A DNA stretch of 64,000 bases, taken from Haladaptatus cibarius D43 (GTDB taxonomy: Archaea > Halobacteriota > Halobacteria > Halobacteriales > Haladaptataceae). Positions 5,320 to 46,058 of the stretch are shown here, piece by piece. The notes below the pieces were generated by a model, which saw only the letters and a program-made list of their open reading frames with translations, was not told the DNA's origin and made no database searches. The stretch's first letter is position 1; every line of letters begins with the position of its first letter. The translations under genes and the position numbers were made by a program. The DNA lies in the NCBI RefSeq assembly GCF_000710615.1, contig NZ_JDTH01000001.1, positions 62,001 to 126,000 of the forward strand, written 5' to 3'.

Positions 5320-5538
5320 CGACTGTCAAAATTTGGAATATGGAAAAATAAATAAACATGCTCCGGGAATAGGAAAGACATAGAACTGCGTTCGCAGGTG
5401 TATCAAATGGGACAGCATCGACAAAGATTTCGGGACTTATCCAGCCCATAATAATGCAGGTGGCCAAACGATACACACTGGATGGCACGGGACGGATCAC
5501 ACAAAGATCGAACGCGGTATCGCCGAGGGCAGCCTAGT

Positions 5539-6144
5539 ATGAGCGGTGTTCCGGCGAGTTTGGACGGCGAATCCAGTATTTTAGTTCTCGCACCGTCGAT
5601 GAGCACGGAGGCCGACGAAACGTGCATCGATCTGCTCACGCAAGCGCCGTCGGAACAGGAAAACGTTCTCTGGGTCACGTTCACTCGGTCGCCGGACGGC
5701 TGTTTGCAGGATTGGCTCTCACACGCTGGTGGACGTCCGGCAAATCTCCGGTTTCTGAGCGTGGGAGAGACGGTTCGCTCCGTTGCCGCATCCTCGTCCG
5801 TGCACGAGACGCCGAACGAAGCGGTTATCGACACCCTCTCCAATCCCGGCGATTTGACCGGACTTGGAATCAAAGTCAGCGAAATCCTCCAGCAGTGGCA
5901 CGGAAACGGCTACGAGACTGTTGCGTGTTTCCATTCGCTCACCGCCCTGCTCCAGTACTCCGACGTACAAACCGTCTACAAGTTCCTTCACGTGCTCACG
6001 GGACGCTTCGCCACCGCGGACGTGAGCGCTCATTTCCACCTTGACCCCGAAGCCCACGATTTACAAACAATCAACACGCTGAAAACGCTGTTCGACGCCG
6101 TTGCGGAACTCGATGACGGCGATTGGTCGGTTAGAACGCGCTAG
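5539..6144 (+). CDS. Degenerate RecA/KaiC-like protein (DUF7504-type)
   Basis: 201 residues from ATG 5539 (the frame is open to 5482 but the upstream residues are basic and non-typical). Pattern: SSILVLAPSMSTEADETCIDLL, a strand followed by a helix where a Walker A loop would sit in RecA-type proteins, but without GKT/S. Then NVLWVTFTRSPDGCLQDW, and a later hydrophobic strand ETVACFHSLTALLQYSD resembling a Walker B strand without the Asp pair. This looks like the haloarchaeal DUF7504 group, read here as an ATPase-fold protein that has lost nucleotide binding. It opens a co-directional block ending in a MinD-type ATPase. Function unknown. Confidence 0.75.
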   Translation: MSGVPASLDGESSILVLAPSMSTEADETCIDLLTQAPSEQENVLWVTFTRSPDGCLQDWLSHAGGRPANLRFLSVGETVRSVAASSSVHETPNEAVIDTLSNPGDLTGLGIKVSEILQQWHGNGYETVACFHSLTALLQYSDVQTVYKFLHVLTGRFATADVSAHFHLDPEAHDLQTINTLKTLFDAVAELDDGDWSVRTR

Positions 6145-6190
6145 AGTAATTTTTAAACCATATCGACCAAGATAAATAAATATAGTTGAT

Positions 6191-6529
6191 ATGTTACTAG
6201 TGGTTACGTACTCTCAGTCCGCTCGGCAGACGCTTCGAAACGTCTGCACGACATACGAGGAGTGCGTCGTTCGCCGATTCGGGCGTGCCGTTTTACTGTG
6301 TGAGACGGAACTGAGTGCGTTCCTCGCGCTTCGTCTCCGCGAAAAACACGGGACGGACGTACAAATCGAACGTACCACGCCGCTGAACGAGTTTCAGGAA
6401 GTGCCGGAATCGGTTCGAGACGCCGCGTGCGCGTACGAAAATCGCGAACATCCGAGCACGTCGTACAGCAAGTTCGCGGTCGGAACTGACCATCCGTCTC
6501 CGGATAATATGCGCGACGAAGAACTGTGA
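6191..6529 (+). CDS. Conserved haloarchaeal protein of unknown function
   Basis: 112 residues from ATG 6191. It starts MLLVVTYSQSARQTLRNVC, has a mixed alpha/beta look, and includes RRFGRAVLLCETELSAFLALRLREKHG. The C-terminal part is polar and ends SPDNMRDEEL. No catalytic motif is seen. It sits 46 bp after the DUF7504-like gene and 13 bp before the next gene, so it is probably part of the same operon. As I recall the family is restricted to haloarchaea and keeps this position near minD and tfb (perhaps DUF7855). Confidence 0.75.
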   Translation: MLLVVTYSQSARQTLRNVCTTYEECVVRRFGRAVLLCETELSAFLALRLREKHGTDVQIERTTPLNEFQEVPESVRDAACAYENREHPSTSYSKFAVGTDHPSPDNMRDEEL

Positions 6530-6542
6530 GGACGTGCCGTCG

Positions 6543-7400
6543 ATGAAAGTTAGAATCAACGGTGAAACCCTGACCGGACGCGCTATCGACCTGCGAGAAT
6601 GGTCAGTGACGCCGATCGAGGCTGTCGCCGCAGTTCAAGAGAACGTAGAAGCAGACGACGGATCGCTCACAGTTGATGGCCCCGAACCCAGACCGGTACA
6701 CAAACACGTCGGACTCATCGAACCGAAGCTGTCGCTCGCCGTTCGGCCTGCGATGGCCAGCGCCGCACGCTCCAACGGTTTAAGCGCGCCACAGGACGAG
6801 GAGATAGCGATACTCACGAAAAAGATGAATTCGTTCGATGTGCGGGACGTTTCGCTCCGGTCAAAGCGACGGCGAGTTGCGGACGCCAGCGGGTCGGAAA
6901 CGGAACTTCGAGAGCAAGTTGCGGCGCTTCGAGGACGGGTACAGACGCTCCGAGAAACGGACATGGATACGGAATCGGCCGAATCGAGGCTTCGAGAGGC
7001 GACACAAAAACTCTCGGAGATGGAAACGGAGCGAATCGCCGCCCAACAGGCGCTCGAACAGGCACAGAAACGACTGCACTCGGTACGAGACGAACGGGCC
7101 GAACATCTGCGCCTCCGCGACCGGAAGGAGAATCTCGAACGAGACGCTCGAAAATACCTCGCACAGCAGATTCGAGAAGAGTTCGTATCCGCAGTTTCGG
7201 CGGTTCCGAGGGATGAAAACGGAGAGAGACAAATGACGGACTCGGCTCGTCCGGGGCAGTTCGAAGGTGACTCGATAACTGCAGCGTTAGCGACGGCACG
7301 AATCGCAAATATTCAGGCACCAATCGTTCTTTCGTGCGGCCGATTCGAGACTGCGAAATCGGCGAGCGACTGTCTCGATACTCCTGTGCTACAGGTTTAA
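6543..7400 (+). CDS. Coiled-coil protein in the minD-tfb cluster
   Basis: 285 residues from ATG 6543 (a GTG at 6534 would add three). The N-terminal 100 residues are alpha/beta (MKVRINGETLTGRAIDLREW, later EPRPVHKHVGLIEPKLSLAV). Residues about 110-215 are a long charged heptad-like helix (REQVAALRGRVQTLRE, then ERIAAQQALEQAQKRLHSVR), strongly suggesting a coiled coil. The C-terminal 60 residues return to a compact fold with RIANIQAPIVLS. No membrane span. Coiled-coil partners of MinD/ParA ATPases are common, so an adaptor role is a reasonable guess but untested. Confidence 0.75.
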   Translation: MKVRINGETLTGRAIDLREWSVTPIEAVAAVQENVEADDGSLTVDGPEPRPVHKHVGLIEPKLSLAVRPAMASAARSNGLSAPQDEEIAILTKKMNSFDVRDVSLRSKRRRVADASGSETELREQVAALRGRVQTLRETDMDTESAESRLREATQKLSEMETERIAAQQALEQAQKRLHSVRDERAEHLRLRDRKENLERDARKYLAQQIREEFVSAVSAVPRDENGERQMTDSARPGQFEGDSITAALATARIANIQAPIVLSCGRFETAKSASDCLDTPVLQV

Positions 7401-8044: not shown

Positions 8045-8703
8045 TTGTGGCAGTGACGGGTGGAAAAGGAGGGGTCGGGAAATCGACCGTCGCGCTGAAT
8101 CTCGGAAACGAACTCGATGCCGTCGTCGTGGATGCAGACCTTGCGATGGCAGACCTTCCGACGACACGCGGTCCGGACTTACACGACGTGCTTGCGGGGC
8201 GTGCGGAACCACTCGAAGCGATTTCGACGGTCGGAACGGTTTCCCTGCTGTCCTGCGGGCGTACTCTCGCTGGCGCGCGAGGATGCGATTTGCTGGCGTT
8301 CACTAAAGTGATTGAACAGATTACAGAGGAATACGAACACATCGTCATCGACTGCCCAGCAGGAATGGCCGCGGATGCGGGACTGCCGCTGGTCGCCGCG
8401 GATTCGTGTTTGCTCGTCACGATTCCCCAGCGATTCGCGTTGGCGGATGCAGTTCGGACGAGAATGCTGGCACGGCAACTCGATACTGGTCTTTTACGAG
8501 TGGTGTTGAATAGAACTGAAAAGAATCCACCGGTTGAAATCGTCGAACGAACGTTGGGTGCACCGGTAACCGCAATTCCGGAGTCAAAAACAGTTGCGCA
8601 GGCACAACGACACGGTCGGCCAGTTGCAACGGCTGCACCGGAGAGCAAATCAGCGGAACGATTCGCGGAGCTCGGACGGGCGGTTCACCGCTGTAGGTCG
8701 TGA
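8041..8703 (+). CDS. minD: MinD/ParA-family ATPase (probably MinD1 by synteny)
   Basis: 220 residues. It carries the deviant Walker A motif GGKGGVGKST (residues about 7-16) with both signature lysines, the switch region VVDADLAMADLP, and Walker B HIVIDCPAG. MinD/ParA proteins are membrane- or DNA-associated ATPases that position cellular machinery. In Haloferax volcanii the four MinD paralogs influence placement of archaella and chemosensory arrays rather than division, and the copy next to tfb is, as far as I recall, MinD1. No clear C-terminal amphipathic membrane helix is visible here. The gene starts within the stop of the previous gene (ATGA) and ends 19 bp inside the convergent tfb gene. 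Confidence 0.9.
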   Translation: MIVAVTGGKGGVGKSTVALNLGNELDAVVVDADLAMADLPTTRGPDLHDVLAGRAEPLEAISTVGTVSLLSCGRTLAGARGCDLLAFTKVIEQITEEYEHIVIDCPAGMAADAGLPLVAADSCLLVTIPQRFALADAVRTRMLARQLDTGLLRVVLNRTEKNPPVEIVERTLGAPVTAIPESKTVAQAQRHGRPVATAAPESKSAERFAELGRAVHRCRS

Positions 8704-9563
8704 TACGTCGAACGGAGTGTAACCGGCGTTACGTCTGCGACTTCTGCGGCGGCGCGCTGGGTGACCTTCTCGTTGCATTCGCGGGCGGCGGCGTAGAGAC
8801 AGGCCGCGGCGACGCCGCTCGGATTGCGGCCGCTGACGAGATTTTGTGTTTCCGCCGCTTCGACGAATTTCGTCGCGCATCGTTCAACCGCCATCGGCAA
8901 GTCGAGCTGGCTGGCGAATCGGGGGAGATACTCGCGTGGGTCGATTGGGCCGGTCGGAAGGCCAAGTTCGCGGTTCAGTGCATCGTAAGCGACAGTCAGT
9001 TCGTCCCGTTCGGCACGTGCTTTTTCGACGACTTCGTCGAGCGTCCGCGAGACGGTTGCGGTGCGGCAAGTCGCGTAGACGGCCGCCGCGGCGAATCCTT
9101 CCAGCGAGCGACCGCGAAGTAAGTCTTCGTTTTGTGCGGATTCGAACAGTACGCAGGCTTGGTCGCGCACGTTCATGGGGAGTTGGAGCGCACCGACGAG
9201 ACGGCGAATCTCGGTGAATCCGTACACCTGATTCCGCTCGGATTTCGAGGAGATTCTGGCGCGGTTGTGTTGCCGACGCATTCGCGTTATCTGCCGTCGT
9301 TTGCGACCGGTCAATCGAACCGAACTGTCTCGATAGCCGATTTCGGTGGACAGGCCGCGGTCGTGTCGGGAACGCGTCAGCGGCGCACCGGTTCGTTTCT
9401 TGTCCGTCTCGTCGTCGCTGAACGACCGCCACTCCGGCCCGCGGTCTAAGTTGTCCTCTGCGACGACGAGGCCGCATTCGGTGCAGACGGCTTCTGCGCC
9501 GTGTTCGCGGACTCGACTTCTACATTCTGGGCACGTTTTTCCGTGTGTCTGTGTCGTACTCAT
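8685..9563 (-). CDS. tfb: Transcription initiation factor IIB
   Basis: 292 residues. TFB bridges TBP and RNA polymerase at archaeal promoters. The N-terminal zinc ribbon has Cys pairs CPEC (near residue 15) and CTEC (near 32). A B-reader-like segment with Arg-rich RLTGRKRRQITRMRRQH follows. Then come two cyclin-fold repeats, about residues 110-190 (RLVGALQLPMNVRDQACVL) and 205-290 (YLPRFASQLDLPMAVERCA). Haloarchaea encode several TFBs; this is one of them and specificity cannot be read from sequence. The stop lies inside the 3' end of the convergent minD gene. Confidence 0.96.
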   Translation of the reverse strand: MSTTQTHGKTCPECRSRVREHGAEAVCTECGLVVAEDNLDRGPEWRSFSDDETDKKRTGAPLTRSRHDRGLSTEIGYRDSSVRLTGRKRRQITRMRRQHNRARISSKSERNQVYGFTEIRRLVGALQLPMNVRDQACVLFESAQNEDLLRGRSLEGFAAAAVYATCRTATVSRTLDEVVEKARAERDELTVAYDALNRELGLPTGPIDPREYLPRFASQLDLPMAVERCATKFVEAAETQNLVSGRNPSGVAAACLYAAARECNEKVTQRAAAEVADVTPVTLRSTYHDLQR

Positions 9564-9641
9564 CTCAGTGAAAACTTCTCCCGAGATGGTATTTAAACGA
9601 GCGGAGAAATCGGGGTAAAGGAGTGGTTCGGTGGAACAGAG

Positions 9642-9660
9642 CGTACCGGTTACCGGTACG
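9642..9660. promoter_or_regulatory. 19-bp palindrome in the divergent tfb / downstream gene region
   Basis: Arms CGTACCGGT and ACCGGTACG are perfect 9-mers around a single T. It also contains a direct repeat TACCGGT-TACCGGT. It lies between the divergently transcribed tfb (start 9563) and the gene starting at 9736, about 80 bp from each, a good position for an operator. No regulator can be assigned. Confidence 0.45.
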
Positions 9661-9735
9661 TCCTCCCAGTCAGATAATTACCAAATTTGATACCTGTCAC
9701 AAACATTCAAGTCGGTGAGAAGACAAGAAGACCAT

Positions 9736-10251
9736 ATGGCGCTGTCGGATATTGCGGAAGGGTTGGAGGTGACGACCGAGCAGAGAAACCGCGGTGTCGC
9801 AACCGTGGACGACACCGGCCGAAACCTCTGCGAACGACTGGAAGCGTTTGCCAACGGCCTTCCGTGTGATGCCGACACGGCGGAAAAAATATTGGAATCT
9901 CACGCCTCCGGAACATCTGTCGGCGAAAGTGCACGTAAAAGCGGAGTCGCACCGATTACCGCGGCAAAGACGCTCCATCTACTCGGCGTACACGGCGTTT
10001 CGCCACTTCCGCCGATGGGTCACGAAATCATTCGGGATTGGCTGTCGGCCGACCTTTCTCGCTCGGAAGCGCGGGCGTTGACCGGCGCGAACGAAACCGA
10101 GTTCGCACTGGCGACGTTTATCGAAACGCACGAACCGATAGAGGGTGCGGCGGAGGTAGTCGAAGGCGCGTTAACGTTCGGCGGCGATGCCGCAGTGAGA
10201 AAGCGGGATGCGCTGGCGGAGACGATGAGCGGTGTCGGCGACTTGTTCTAA
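9736..10251 (+). CDS. Conserved haloarchaeal protein, helix-rich
   Basis: 171 residues from ATG 9736 (an upstream Met would add seven). All-helical and soluble by inspection. Central segment AEKILESHASGTSVGESARKSG then VAPITAAKTLHLLGVHGV resembles a helix-turn-helix (S-V-G-E-S-A ... T-A-A-K-T-L), so DNA binding is possible. The C-terminal half (LSRSEARALTGANETEFALATF) resembles a second helical bundle. It is divergent from tfb with a palindrome between them, and I believe the neighbourhood is conserved in haloarchaea (perhaps DUF7858). Function unknown. Confidence 0.75.
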   Translation: MALSDIAEGLEVTTEQRNRGVATVDDTGRNLCERLEAFANGLPCDADTAEKILESHASGTSVGESARKSGVAPITAAKTLHLLGVHGVSPLPPMGHEIIRDWLSADLSRSEARALTGANETEFALATFIETHEPIEGAAEVVEGALTFGGDAAVRKRDALAETMSGVGDLF

Positions 10252-41139: not shown

Positions 41140-41173
41140 AATCTCGATCGATGTCATCAGGATATAATATTTC

Positions 41174-41199
41174 TTGTAGCGAGAACGAACTCGCTACAA
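41174..41199. promoter_or_regulatory. Perfect 10-bp inverted repeat between a membrane protein gene and lpdA
   Basis: TTGTAGCGAG and CTCGCTACAA, separated by AACGAA, in the divergent region between the membrane protein (start 41139) and lpdA (ATG 41283). An AT-rich ATATAATATTTC at 41162-41173 abuts it and looks like a TATA element. It may be an operator for either gene. Not a terminator by position, since both genes point away. Confidence 0.5.
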
Positions 41200-41282
41200 A
41201 ATCATGCGATTTGCCAACATACGTTCGGTTGCCGGTTCGTAATCCACCTGATTTTTTACCCGGTAGCGCATCCGTCCACCTA

Positions 41283-42707
41283 ATGGTCGTCGGAGACATC
41301 TCGACAGGAACGGACGTGCTGGTTATCGGCGCAGGACCGGGTGGCTACGTCGCCGCGATTCGCGCCGGGCAACTGGGTCTGGACGTAACGCTCGTCGAAA
41401 AGGACGCCTACGGCGGAACCTGCCTGAACTACGGGTGCATCCCGTCGAAGGCAATGATTACGGCGTCCGACTTGGCCTACGACGCGAACAACGCCGAGGA
41501 CATGGGAATCTACACCAAACTCGACGTGAACTACGGCGAGATGGTCGATTGGAAAGACGACGTCGTCTCCCAGTTGACCGGCGGCGTCGAAAAGCTCTGC
41601 AAGGCAAACGGCGTCTCGCTGATGGAAGGCCGTGCCGAGTTCGCTGACGACAAATCGGTTCGCGTCGTCCACGGCGGCGAAGGACAGGGTTCGGAAACCG
41701 TCGAGTTCGAGAATGCAATCGTCTCGACCGGAAGCCGAGCAATCGAGGTTCCCGGCTTCGAGTTCGACGGCGAGCACATCCTTAGTTCGCGGGAAGCACT
41801 CGCGCTGGACGACGTTCCGGAGAGCATCGTCATCGTCGGCGCAGGCTACATCGGCATGGAACTGGCGGGCGTCTTCGCCAAACTCGGTTCCGACGTGACC
41901 GTGGTCGAAATGCTCGATTCGGTGCTTCCCGGCTACGAGGACGACCTCGCACGCCCGGTCAAAAAGAAGGCCGACGAGTTGGGAATCGACTTCCACTTCG
42001 GGCAGGCGGCGAAGGAGTGGGAAGAATCAGGCGACGGTATTACGGTCATGACCGAGAACGAGGACGGCGAAGTCTCGGAGTTCGGTGCCGAAAAGGCGCT
42101 CGTGGCGGTCGGTCGCCAACCCGTGACGGACACGCTCGAACTCGAAAACGCGGGCATCGAAACTGACGAGAAGGGCTTCATCCAGACGGACGACCGCGCC
42201 CGAACCGAGCAAGAACACATCTTCGCAATCGGTGACGTGGCGGGCGAACCGATGCTCGCGCACAAAGCCAGCAAGGAAGGACAGGTCGCCGCGGAAGTCA
42301 TCGCGGGCAAACCCTCGGCCCTCGACTATCAGGCCATGCCCGCCGCGGTGTTCACCGACCCCGAAATCGGCACGGTCGGCATGACGGAAGCGGAAGCCGA
42401 GGCACAAGGCTTCGAACCGGTCGTCGGCAAGTTCCCGTTCCAAGCCAGTGGTCGCGCACTGACCACGGGCCACGCCGAAGGATTCGTCCGAATCGTCGCC
42501 GACGAACCGAGCGGGTTCGTCCTCGGCGCGCAGATTGTCGGGCCGGAAGCCTCCGAACTGATTGCCGAGTTGGGACTGGCAATCGAGATGGGTGCAACGC
42601 TCGAAGACCTCGCCGCGACGGTTCACACCCACCCGACGCTCTCGGAAGCCGTGATGGAGTGTGCCGAGAACGCGCTCGGACACGCGATTCACACGCTGAA
42701 TCGGTGA
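41283..42707 (+). CDS. lpdA: Dihydrolipoyl dehydrogenase (E3)
   Basis: 474 residues from ATG 41283 (MVVGDISTG); the open frame upstream reads through the promoter and is rejected. FAD-dependent reoxidation of dihydrolipoamide with NAD. FAD motif VIGAGPGGYVAAIRAGQLG, redox disulfide GGTCLNYGCIPSK (about residues 42-54), NAD motif VGAGYIGMELAGVFAKLG (about 183), second FAD motif FAIGDVAGEP (about 315), and the C-terminal catalytic HTHPTLSE (about 445). It serves the E1/E2 genes just upstream and possibly other lipoyl complexes. Confidence 0.97.
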   Translation: MVVGDISTGTDVLVIGAGPGGYVAAIRAGQLGLDVTLVEKDAYGGTCLNYGCIPSKAMITASDLAYDANNAEDMGIYTKLDVNYGEMVDWKDDVVSQLTGGVEKLCKANGVSLMEGRAEFADDKSVRVVHGGEGQGSETVEFENAIVSTGSRAIEVPGFEFDGEHILSSREALALDDVPESIVIVGAGYIGMELAGVFAKLGSDVTVVEMLDSVLPGYEDDLARPVKKKADELGIDFHFGQAAKEWEESGDGITVMTENEDGEVSEFGAEKALVAVGRQPVTDTLELENAGIETDEKGFIQTDDRARTEQEHIFAIGDVAGEPMLAHKASKEGQVAAEVIAGKPSALDYQAMPAAVFTDPEIGTVGMTEAEAEAQGFEPVVGKFPFQASGRALTTGHAEGFVRIVADEPSGFVLGAQIVGPEASELIAELGLAIEMGATLEDLAATVHTHPTLSEAVMECAENALGHAIHTLNR

Positions 42708-42770: not shown

Positions 42771-43403
42771 TCAACACTCGTAAACGCACGAGTTGTCGCT
42801 ACAATCACAACACTCGCAGTAGCAATCGCATTCGTCACAGACTGCGATGCACGAATTATCGTCTGGATGACGTTCACAGCAGACGGTTTCACAGTCACAG
42901 GTTTCACACAGACCGAGCGAGCTGTCACAGTCGACTTCGGGTTCCGGTAGGGAACCGTATCTGACGAGATGGTCTTCACCGAGGGGTTCGCCGTCTTCGA
43001 CCGGGTTGAGAATCGCGTGGGCAGTGTCCTCTTCGGGGAAGACGGAAAGAGAGAGATAGCCGTCCTCGACGCGGCGGATGATGAGAATCCGTGGCGTATG
43101 GCTGTCGCCGAGTTGGTTGGCGGTCAACCGTTCACCCTCTATTCTACCGGTCGGGTCGGTCAGTTCGTGGAGGTCGCCGATTTTTGCTTCCTCGATAACG
43201 CCGTCGTCCGAGAGTTCTTCGAGAACGTCCGACTGCTGTTGGACGGCGGCTTTGACGATGTCTGCGTCGCGGTAGTCGCGAAGAAACGCATCTTGCTCCG
43301 ACCGCGTGAGGTCGAAGCGCTGTGTGGTAGCGAGATTACTCCGTTCTGCGGCGGCGCTCGCTGGAGCGAGTGTCACCAATGCTCCGGTTGCGGTTCCTTT
43401 CAA
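42771..43403 (-). CDS. Cysteine-rich Tat-type secreted protein, paralog 1; native start disrupted
   Basis: 210 residues if read from the TTG at 43403. Compared residue by residue with its paralog at 43608-44240, the homologous start is the ATG at 43443-43445, 14 codons upstream, and it would include the Tat motif SRRQILK. In this copy codon 2 is TAA (43440-43442), where the paralog has a Ser codon. The N-terminal ~125 residues after the signal are alike in both proteins (RDYRDADIVKAAVQQQSDVL, ELSDDGVIEEAKIGDL, HTPRILIIRRVEDGYLSL). The C-terminal 53 residues hold 16 Cys in CxC, CC and CxxC patterns. It is either a pseudogene, a cytosolic protein started from TTG, or a read error. Function unknown. 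Confidence 0.7.
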   Translation of the reverse strand: MKGTATGALVTLAPASAAAERSNLATTQRFDLTRSEQDAFLRDYRDADIVKAAVQQQSDVLEELSDDGVIEEAKIGDLHELTDPTGRIEGERLTANQLGDSHTPRILIIRRVEDGYLSLSVFPEEDTAHAILNPVEDGEPLGEDHLVRYGSLPEPEVDCDSSLGLCETCDCETVCCERHPDDNSCIAVCDECDCYCECCDCSDNSCVYEC

Positions 43404-43445
43404 GATTTGACGCCGACTCAGCTCGGTATTGTTTTGATTTTACAT

Positions 43446-43607
43446 ACCATATTAATATATGAATACTACGGTAAAAAATATACATTCTGGATATGTAGAA
43501 TTTTATTTAATTTAGGTATTTGCGAATAATACTGCCGAGCTACTGCGCGGAATCCAATAATTTAACCATAAAAATCGAAATCCGACGAGGATGTCAGTAG
43601 GAGTCTC
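43446..43607 (-). promoter_or_regulatory. AT-rich promoter region of cysteine-rich paralog 1
   Basis: 162 bp strongly AT-rich compared with the surrounding genome, with several TATA-like runs on the minus strand near 43451-43460 (ATTAATATAT on the + strand) and 43478-43486. It separates the two tandem paralogs, so each may have its own promoter. No regulator site is recognised. Confidence 0.4.
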
Positions 43608-44240
43608 TCAGCACCACGTAGAGCTACAACTGCAGTAACACTCTTCACACATCTCCTCGCAAATGGTACCTTCACCATTGAACTTACAACAGTAGGTGGA
43701 ACAACCATGACACCCGTAACACTGCCACGGAGACAAGCACGCTTCCGGTTCGACTTCCATGTCCGGCATGCTACCGTACTTTACGATGTGGTCTTCACCG
43801 AGTTGTTCACCGTCTTCAACTGGGTTGAACAGCGCACGTGCAGTACCCTTTTCAGGGAACAACAGAAGAGAGAGATAACCGGATTCGACGCGCCGGAACA
43901 CCTTAATCTCCGGTGTGTGGCCTTTACCGAGGTTGTACGTCGTCAGTCGCTCACCGACGCCGCCACTGGGTTCGGTTAACTCTTCCAAGTCGTCGATACG
44001 TGGGTTGTCAAGGACGCCGTCGTCCGAGAGTTCTTCAAGGAGGTCAGAATGCTGGTGAACGATGTCCCGAACGACGTATGCGTCCCGATAATCTCGTAGG
44101 AGCTTCTCCTGTTCAACCTGTGATATTTCAGTTGTCTGCTCCGCTGAAACGTTCGCCGAGCCAAAAGCCACCAACGCACCGGTCGCTGAACCTTTCAAAA
44201 TCTGTCGCCGACTTAGACCGTTGTTGTTTTGTCTGGACAT
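43608..44240 (-). CDS. Cysteine-rich Tat-type secreted protein, paralog 2 (halocin-like architecture)
   Basis: 210 residues from ATG 44240. The N-terminus MSRQNNNGLSRRQILKGSAT is a Tat signal (SRRQILK at residues 10-16), with a short hydrophobic stretch and a likely cleavage around NVSAEQ. Next, ~125 residues resemble paralog 1 (LRDYRDAYVVRDIVHQHSDL, LEELSDDGVLDNPRIDDLEE, VFRRVESGYLSLLLFPEKGT). The last ~50 residues carry 12 Cys (QCYGCHGC, TYCC, ICEEMCEECYCSC) and end in Cys. A Tat-exported precursor with a conserved N-terminal domain and a Cys-rich C-terminal peptide is the layout of pro-halocin C8 (N-terminal immunity part, C-terminal halocin). I see no clear sequence similarity to it, so this is an analogy. 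A secreted metal-binding protein is the main alternative. Confidence 0.8.
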   Translation of the reverse strand: MSRQNNNGLSRRQILKGSATGALVAFGSANVSAEQTTEISQVEQEKLLRDYRDAYVVRDIVHQHSDLLEELSDDGVLDNPRIDDLEELTEPSGGVGERLTTYNLGKGHTPEIKVFRRVESGYLSLLLFPEKGTARALFNPVEDGEQLGEDHIVKYGSMPDMEVEPEACLSPWQCYGCHGCSTYCCKFNGEGTICEEMCEECYCSCSSTWC

Positions 44241-44498: not shown

Positions 44499-46058
44499 TC
44501 AAGCAAATTTGTGAACCGTCACGTCCAACGTATCCAAATCCACGACTGGCGCGAATCCCGAATCAGGATTGATGTTGACGCTTTTCTGGAAATCCGTCTG
44601 TGATTGCCAGCAACCGGAGTTCATGGCGAGGACGTTGTGGTACTTGCCGAATCCGAGTTTGTGGACGTGACCAGTGTGGAAGATGTCGGGAACCTCGTCG
44701 ATGACGAGGTAGTCCTTTTCCTCCGGTGCAACGCGGGTGTGGCCACCGTACTGCGGGGCGACGTGACGCTTTTTCAGGAGTTGGTACATCGCCTTGTGCG
44801 GTTCCTCGTAACTCGCTTTTTCCTCCGGCATCTCCGCGATTACCTCGTCCAGCGAGACGCCGTGGTACATCAGTACCGAGACGCCTTCGACTGTAACTGT
44901 AGAGGGATTGCCCGTGATTCGGGCATCGTGAACATCCATGATGTCGCGGAGTTCCTCGTCGAATCCCGGTTGCGGTTCGGCGAGTCGAACCGCGTCGTGG
45001 TTGCCGGGAATCATGACGATTTCCATGTCGCCGGGGACTTCTTTCAGATACTCCGAGAACTTCTCGTACTGCTCGAAGATGTCGATGATGTCGAGTTCCT
45101 CGTCCTGATTCGGATAGATACCGACGCCCTCCACCATGTCGCCTGCGATGAGGAGATATTCGACGTGTTCTGCCTCCTCGGTGTGCAGCCAACTGGTGAA
45201 CCGCGACCACGCGTCGGCCATGAACTCCTGACTGCCGACGTGAACGTCGCTGATGAGTGCGGCTTGTACGTGGCGGTCGGCGGTCGATGGTTTGTAGGTT
45301 CGCGGAACGTCGGGGAAATGAAGCGAGTCAACGAACAGGATTCCGGCATCGCTCGAAAGCGTTCCCTCGACGGCAATCGTCTCGTCCAACAGGAGTTCGT
45401 TCACGACGCTGGCGAACTCCTTGTCCTTCATGATGAGACACGGGAACGTGCCGTTCGTGTCTTCGAGTTCGACAAGCCAGTGTCCGCTCGCCGTCGAACG
45501 AATGTCGCTTATCATCCCGACCATGGCGGCGTCGCTTCCGCCCGGCATGCTGGCGACTGCGTTCGTTGGACGAGCATTGACACGACCACGAAGTTGTCCC
45601 GAAAGCCGCTGGAAACGGTCGCGGAACACCGTAACGAAATCGTCGTACTCGCCGGTTCCAGTGCTCTGTCCGGTTACGTCGCCCTCGATACCGACCGACT
45701 GAAGGGCTTCGTTCCGTGAGATGGACCCCTCTGTTTCAACTGGAGAGGTCACCTCATGCACTGAGGATTCGGTGTTTTTCGTTCCAGTAGAAAAGGGGGT
45801 ATTATCGGGGATGGAAACATCTCCGTTCTCCGATAGAGACGATGCCGATGAAGCTGACTCCGATGAAGCCGAGTCGAGAACGTTCCTGACGTGTTCGACG
45901 GAGATTTTCAGCGCGTGTTCGGGGGCGGACTCGACTGCCTCGTTGAGCGCGCCGTCTGGGTCTGGCGCGTTTGCAAGAAGCGTCACGGCCTCTCGGTCGG
46001 CGTTGTACCCGCGACTCGTGAGTTCTCTGACGATTCGAGCCGGGGTTTCTAATGGCAC
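44499..46058 (-). CDS. polD1: DNA polymerase D small subunit (DP1)
   Basis: 519 residues. DP1 carries the 3'-5' proofreading exonuclease of the archaeal family D replicative polymerase. The N-terminal ~45 residues form a helical domain (RIVRELTSRGYNADREAVTL), then a Ser/Thr/Glu-rich linker to about residue 135. An OB domain covers about 175-260 (AAMVGMISDIRSTASGHWLV). The calcineurin-like phosphodiesterase domain shows metal motifs ISDVHVGS (about 280), AGDMVEG (about 318), PGNHDAVR (about 360), YHGVSL and FHTGHVHKLG (about 457). The large subunit DP2 is not in the window. Confidence 0.96.
   Translation of the reverse strand: MPLETPARIVRELTSRGYNADREAVTLLANAPDPDGALNEAVESAPEHALKISVEHVRNVLDSASSESASSASSLSENGDVSIPDNTPFSTGTKNTESSVHEVTSPVETEGSISRNEALQSVGIEGDVTGQSTGTGEYDDFVTVFRDRFQRLSGQLRGRVNARPTNAVASMPGGSDAAMVGMISDIRSTASGHWLVELEDTNGTFPCLIMKDKEFASVVNELLLDETIAVEGTLSSDAGILFVDSLHFPDVPRTYKPSTADRHVQAALISDVHVGSQEFMADAWSRFTSWLHTEEAEHVEYLLIAGDMVEGVGIYPNQDEELDIIDIFEQYEKFSEYLKEVPGDMEIVMIPGNHDAVRLAEPQPGFDEELRDIMDVHDARITGNPSTVTVEGVSVLMYHGVSLDEVIAEMPEEKASYEEPHKAMYQLLKKRHVAPQYGGHTRVAPEEKDYLVIDEVPDIFHTGHVHKLGFGKYHNVLAMNSGCWQSQTDFQKSVNINPDSGFAPVVDLDTLDVTVHKFA
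45724..45745 (-). other. ORB-like sequence inside DP1
   Basis: Minus-strand reading contains TCCAGTTGAAAC followed by AGAGGGGTC, resembling the origin repeats but imperfect. It lies in the Ser/Thr-rich linker codons of DP1. It shares GTTTCAACTGGAG (plus strand) with the copy at 44466. Could be chance. Confidence 0.2.

Follow-up and report, generated by a model that had tools for sequence, protein, structure and literature searches.

The two adjacent genes described here belong, judging from their sequences, to an unregistered and undescribed protein family in which a Tat signal is followed by a domain of about 115 residues and a cysteine-rich tail, and which we have seen only in haloarchaea. 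The explanation that we favor, and hold with roughly even confidence, is that its members are secreted precursors of disulfide-rich peptides that probably serve in microbial competition and work much as ProC8 does.

Organization of the gene pair

The genes, here called A and B, lie in the window, the 64,000-nucleotide stretch of the Haladaptatus cibarius D43 genome that was analyzed. Their features are as follows.

43608..44240, minus strand: gene A, 210 aa, with an ATG start and an intact Tat-type N-terminus
44139..44216, minus strand: Tat signal region of gene A, LSRRQILKGSATGALVAFGSANVSAE, with SRRQILK (PF10518, 17.4 bits, E = 0.0042, gathering score 22.7)
43800..44126, minus strand: conserved N-terminal domain of gene A, residues ~39–147 (A3 profile, E = 7e-28)
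43611..43739, minus strand: cysteine-rich tail of gene A, 12 Cys
43446..43607, no strand: A+T-rich intergenic gap between A and B
42771..43445, minus strand: gene B frame from the aligned ATG, with TAA at codon 2 (43440–43442), open from 43439 to the end
42771–43403, minus strand: gene B open reading frame counted from TTG 43403, 210 aa
42981..43310, minus strand: conserved N-terminal domain of gene B (A3 profile, E = 3.6e-30)
42774..42929, minus strand: cysteine-rich tail of gene B, 16 Cys, with the cysteine framework of gene A plus extra C-terminal cysteines

From their alignment, genes A and B are tandem paralogs. The two 210-residue open reading frames reported on the minus strand by the initial annotation are present at 42771–43403 and 43608–44240, the N-terminal alignment that it put at about 125 residues extends over some 126 residues at 60% identity, and its counts of 16 and 12 tail cysteines are correct, for B and A respectively. 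It had also placed a Tat region in both proteins, which is probable for gene A, where SRRQILK is read from the ATG and the PF10518 match is below the gathering score, and falls for gene B, where the stop codon severs the twin arginine from the ATG. Gene B aligns to gene A from the same ATG position, and its frame reads methionine, stop and then NQNNTELSRRQILK; one TAA inside the gene is also given by the genome search. The first ATG, GTG or TTG after this TAA is the TTG at 43403, beyond the twin arginine. As written, gene B offers neither a usable Tat signal nor a start ahead of the twin arginine, barring unconventional initiation or a base error. It is probably a crippled, recently silenced copy, and because of the start lesion it may be neither made nor exported.

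The G+C content between the genes is about 32% (over 43440–43607) compared with 58% for the whole window. No processing or modifying gene adjoins the pair in the window, just as had been claimed; from reading their open reading frames, we take the flanking genes to be lpdA (41151–42707, plus strand) and a DNA polymerase D small-subunit-like gene (44499–46058, minus strand).

A conserved domain with cysteine-rich tails

The pattern proposed for the pair, a conserved part joined to a variable cysteine-rich core, is a real and general one, as a profile built on just the N-terminal domain (A3, 41 rows, excluding both the Tat region and the tail) picks out dozens of haloarchaeal proteins whose cysteine tails are of many kinds. 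Matches occur in at least 47 of the 391 genomes sampled from the class and at least 22 of 86 genera, counts that are lower bounds because the candidates scored in each genome were capped; the genome draws are samples and not the full set. The genome of the window holds six copies, the maximum seen per genome, and tandem or adjacent copies occur elsewhere (three in genome G185, two in G076 and two in G027). Nearly all members carry an N-terminal twin-arginine motif together with the cysteine tail. Among 295 genomes drawn from the whole phylum, matches were confined to the same order, and no relatives were found in GTDB-220 contigs, viral contigs, plasmids or phages. A profile that included the Tat region (A1) had counted 268 of the 391 genomes and was discarded in favor of the Tat-free count, as most of its matches were to the Tat region only. 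Pfam, NCBIfam and PHROGs contain no family that covers these proteins, returning only Tat-signal and other sub-threshold matches such as DUF7776 in one member (19.7 bits, below the cut-off of 27), and a profile search of the PDB gave no significant match to a solved structure.

The tails of A and B pack 12–16 cysteines into 43–52 residues, and the same layout across 66 homologous open reading frames is more than chance. Divergence of the two tails, noted in the initial annotation, applies to the loops, where non-cysteine residues are only 14% identical; the cysteine spacing is nearly the same (5-2-2-3-0-8-3-2-1-1-4 in A and 6-2-1-3-0-8-3-2-1-1-1-0-1-4-3 in B), and 11 of 15 tail cysteines are kept in a global alignment. 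Identity between A and B drops from 76 of 126 positions in the domain (60%) to 4 of 28 non-cysteine positions in the tail (Fisher p = 1.3e-5), where composition alone would give 7%. The tandem pair in G076 behaves similarly (58% versus 21%, with 8 of 10 cysteines kept), and over homologous pairs the conservation is 86% for cysteine columns, 40% for non-cysteine tail positions and 50% for the domain. When A or B is compared with the three closest homologs, pN is 0.57–0.67 in the tails and 0.23–0.39 in the domains; among those three homologs themselves the tails give 0.28–0.39. As pS is near saturation, the contrast in pN indicates fast loop change and not proven positive selection. Strict conservation of the tail cysteines, taken beforehand as the mark of a fixed metal-binding domain, is found among the closest five proteins (11 invariant columns) and does not hold family-wide, where most frameworks differ. 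Both tails are acidic, unlike cationic peptides, with 5 D/E in A, 14 D/E in B and a single K/R each. Structure prediction from the two-sequence A/B alignment gave a mean pLDDT of 31.5, too low for a model.

The number of tail cysteines ranges from 3 to 22 and is even in 63 of 65 members, although the associated p = 6e-17 is too small owing to relatedness; the parity argument is instead carried by the count after clustering at 40%, which is even in 47 of 48 clusters. As a control, 107 of 167 neighboring open reading frames, crudely called, have an even count. Even numbers of tail cysteines point to disulfides rather than metal sites, and cysteines that are both even in number and more conserved than the loops between them are what would be expected of precursors of disulfide-rich secreted peptides.

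Known precursors and neighboring transporters

ProC8 is a 283-residue protein exported by Tat that comprises HalI and the 76-residue halocin C8 peptide (PMC11509114). The parallel with pro-halocin C8 (NCBIfam TIGR04449) drawn in the initial annotation is sound as to the order of parts, since both are haloarchaeal and place a Tat signal (a probable one in gene A) and a pro-part ahead of a C-terminal cysteine-rich peptide, but it does not extend to a C8 domain or to detectable HalI homology. Hydrophobic and small residues abound in the C8 core, whereas the tails here are polar and acidic. TIGR04449 has no match in the genome of the window, and the C8 profile found nothing significant among the 66 family open reading frames (best E = 5.9). 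Homology to HalI had been raised when the Tat-containing A1 profile matched several open reading frames with a halocin C8 domain, and it was dropped when the signal disappeared on removal of the Tat region. Profile–profile alignment (hhalign) of the N-terminal domain with the corresponding regions of the collected C8 proteins gave a probability of 0.5–0.6%, compared with 99.6% in a control between two halves of the family, though the domain and HalI may still be remotely homologous. The family thus resembles ProC8 in layout and is not a member of halocin C8.

A V[ST]xQ-type motif lies shortly before the first tail cysteine in 8 of 65 members and 6 of 14 TIGR04449 proteins, more often than shuffling would give in either group (0 of 5000 shuffles), for a pattern that was picked after viewing the data. 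It is a possible processing site shared by both groups, and is not present before the tail in A or B. Another secreted haloarchaeal precursor, HFX_0892/HapP of Haloferax mediterranei, is inactive until cleaved by halolysin, an extracellular serine protease; a pair of N-terminal helices carries its activity, and cysteine is not mentioned in the main text (PMC12893001). The likeness drawn here concerns the proposed mechanism, and the active part of HapP is N-terminal, in contrast to the C-terminal cysteine tail proposed for the A/B family.

ABC-2 genes adjoin all three of the closest homologs in apparent operons. At two of these loci (L113 and L122, both in genome G149) a same-strand ABC ATPase gene begins within about 15 bases downstream of the family member, with an ABC-2 permease gene next in line, and at the third (L162, genome G026) two ABC units precede the member on the same strand. 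The neighbors of homologs contain ABC-2 and ABC_tran Pfam domains. The arrangement of an ATPase and an ABC-2 permease beside a peptide gene resembles lantibiotic-protection ABC systems (MutG/EpiE permeases, gallidermin-type ATPase; DrrA), and lantibiotic-protection and drug-resistance subunits are among the best named matches of the L162 and L113 neighbors; their scores, however, are far under the curated cut-offs (27.5 versus 117.2 and 170.7 versus 309.75 bits), and such genes are absent beside those of the window. No ABC, protease or immunity gene adjoins the window pair. The own-genome paralog L109 has a divergent ABC pair 116 bases away, and no cysteine-rich Tat gene lies beside either of two homologs of the L162 permease in the same genome, at C2:1513243 and C1:370727. 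Among the other ~55 family loci, ABC genes are nearby at only a few, which makes the linkage a trait of the subfamily; as a family-wide trait it was rejected, being close only in the A/B subfamily, in L109 and, more loosely, in the own-genome paralog L108. With crude gene calls, ABC ATPases are the sole widespread neighbor family around ~60 loci, and apart from the A/B subfamily they are roughly as frequent as we would expect of so common a family. No adjoining RiPP modifying enzyme (LanM, YcaO or radical SAM) was found among the window open reading frames at 38–50 kb or, again with crude calls, as a recurring neighbor family around the ~60 loci.

Proposed function and turnover of the family

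In the mechanism that we propose, the Tat signal would export a folded precursor, as predicted for A from its sequence; B as written lacks a start. The domain of about 115 residues would be a conserved pro-domain, perhaps aiding folding or keeping the peptide inactive, and the C-terminal 40–60 residues would be a peptide held by 6–8 disulfides, a pairing backed by the parity of the cysteines. An extracellular protease, for example a subtilisin-like halolysin, would then release the peptide, which most likely targets competing microbes, while an adjoining ABC-2 transporter, where there is one, would most likely shield the producer or carry the peptide. The genome has 14 Peptidase_S8 (subtilisin-like) hits that score above the curated threshold and are candidate halolysins (G000:C10:38182–38925, C10:78656–79372, C1:932260–932997, C2:542390–545676 and others), and HFX_0892 provides a precedent for protease activation of secreted precursors in haloarchaea (PMC12893001).

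Of the other explanations, we think it unlikely, though deserving of serious weight, that these are never-cleaved, secreted or surface-anchored two-domain proteins whose cysteine tail, acting with the N-terminal domain, forms a rigid module for binding (as an adhesin, protease inhibitor or receptor-like part). Domain and tail do stay joined across the class, A and B are without a cleavage motif, and an even number of cysteines would suit any disulfide module; against this, between tandem copies the loops of the tail diverge much more quickly than the domain, ABC-2 genes adjoin the three closest homologs, and the possible processing motif precedes the tail in some members other than A and B. 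A metal-binding module, metallothionein-like or for zinc or iron-sulfur storage and loaded ahead of export, seems improbable. The dense CC and CxC motifs and the fixed cysteine positions of the closest five proteins speak for it, and Tat exports folded cofactor proteins. Yet the even counts are often not multiples of four, with 27 of 65 equal to 2 mod 4, which argues against four-cysteine metal sites; each A/B tail has only one histidine, the frameworks and their spacings vary among branches with neither multiples of four nor Cys/His ligands shared family-wide, and the searches matched neither a solved structure nor a registered metal family. We give very little credence to a precursor of a signaling or quorum peptide rather than a toxin: the secreted precursor layout and the ABC transporter beside some homologs would suit one, but no receptor or regulator recurs beside members, and as many as six divergent copies in one genome do not suit it well.

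The fixed cysteines and free loops, together with the tandem copies and gene loss, are in keeping with an arms-race peptide. We suggest more tentatively, and at somewhat less than even confidence, that this is a haloarchaea-wide family of bacteriocin-like precursors, not registered before, in which one conserved pro-domain carries many disulfide scaffolds with fast-changing loops and self-protection comes from ABC-2 transporters in some lineages and perhaps from the pro-domain in others. To our knowledge, sequences are available for few peptide antibiotics of archaea, with halocin C8 as the main model. If correct, this would be a second family with the ProC8 layout, different in sequence, present in many copies per genome and ABC-linked in some lineages; it would offer a searchable source of disulfide-stabilized archaeal peptides and a testable example, in archaea, of loops diversifying while the cysteine frame stays fixed.

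Broken starts recur in the family. Among ~63 members with readable starts, four (B, L108, L154 and L162) have no ATG or GTG before the twin arginine, a clustering that is not a measured excess, as an ORF-based search favors N-terminal lesions. Gene B has ATG-TAA (43440–43445, minus strand), L108 has MMAE and a stop (TGA) ahead of the frame, L154 has an apparent frameshift, and L162 (4684–4725) has ATA where A has ATG, leaving TTG only; the rest of the frame is open in all four. The lesions reflect either recent silencing or unusual initiation and fit birth-and-death turnover, and sequencing error may be the source of any single one.

A second, unrelated Tat/cysteine-rich open reading frame (CFDCGTNAPECASNCFNAC..., 5922–6767, plus strand) adjoins the nearest homolog at L162; it has no match in Pfam, NCBIfam or PHROGs and is negative with the halocin C8 profile. 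The gene that we take to be lpdA is also found near the L162 member, which is therefore probably at the same chromosomal site as the window pair. There, the family member and the full lpdA appear to be separated by a partial copy of the lpdA 3'-end (~5433–5876 and 8155–9840), which suggests insertion or recombination at the site.
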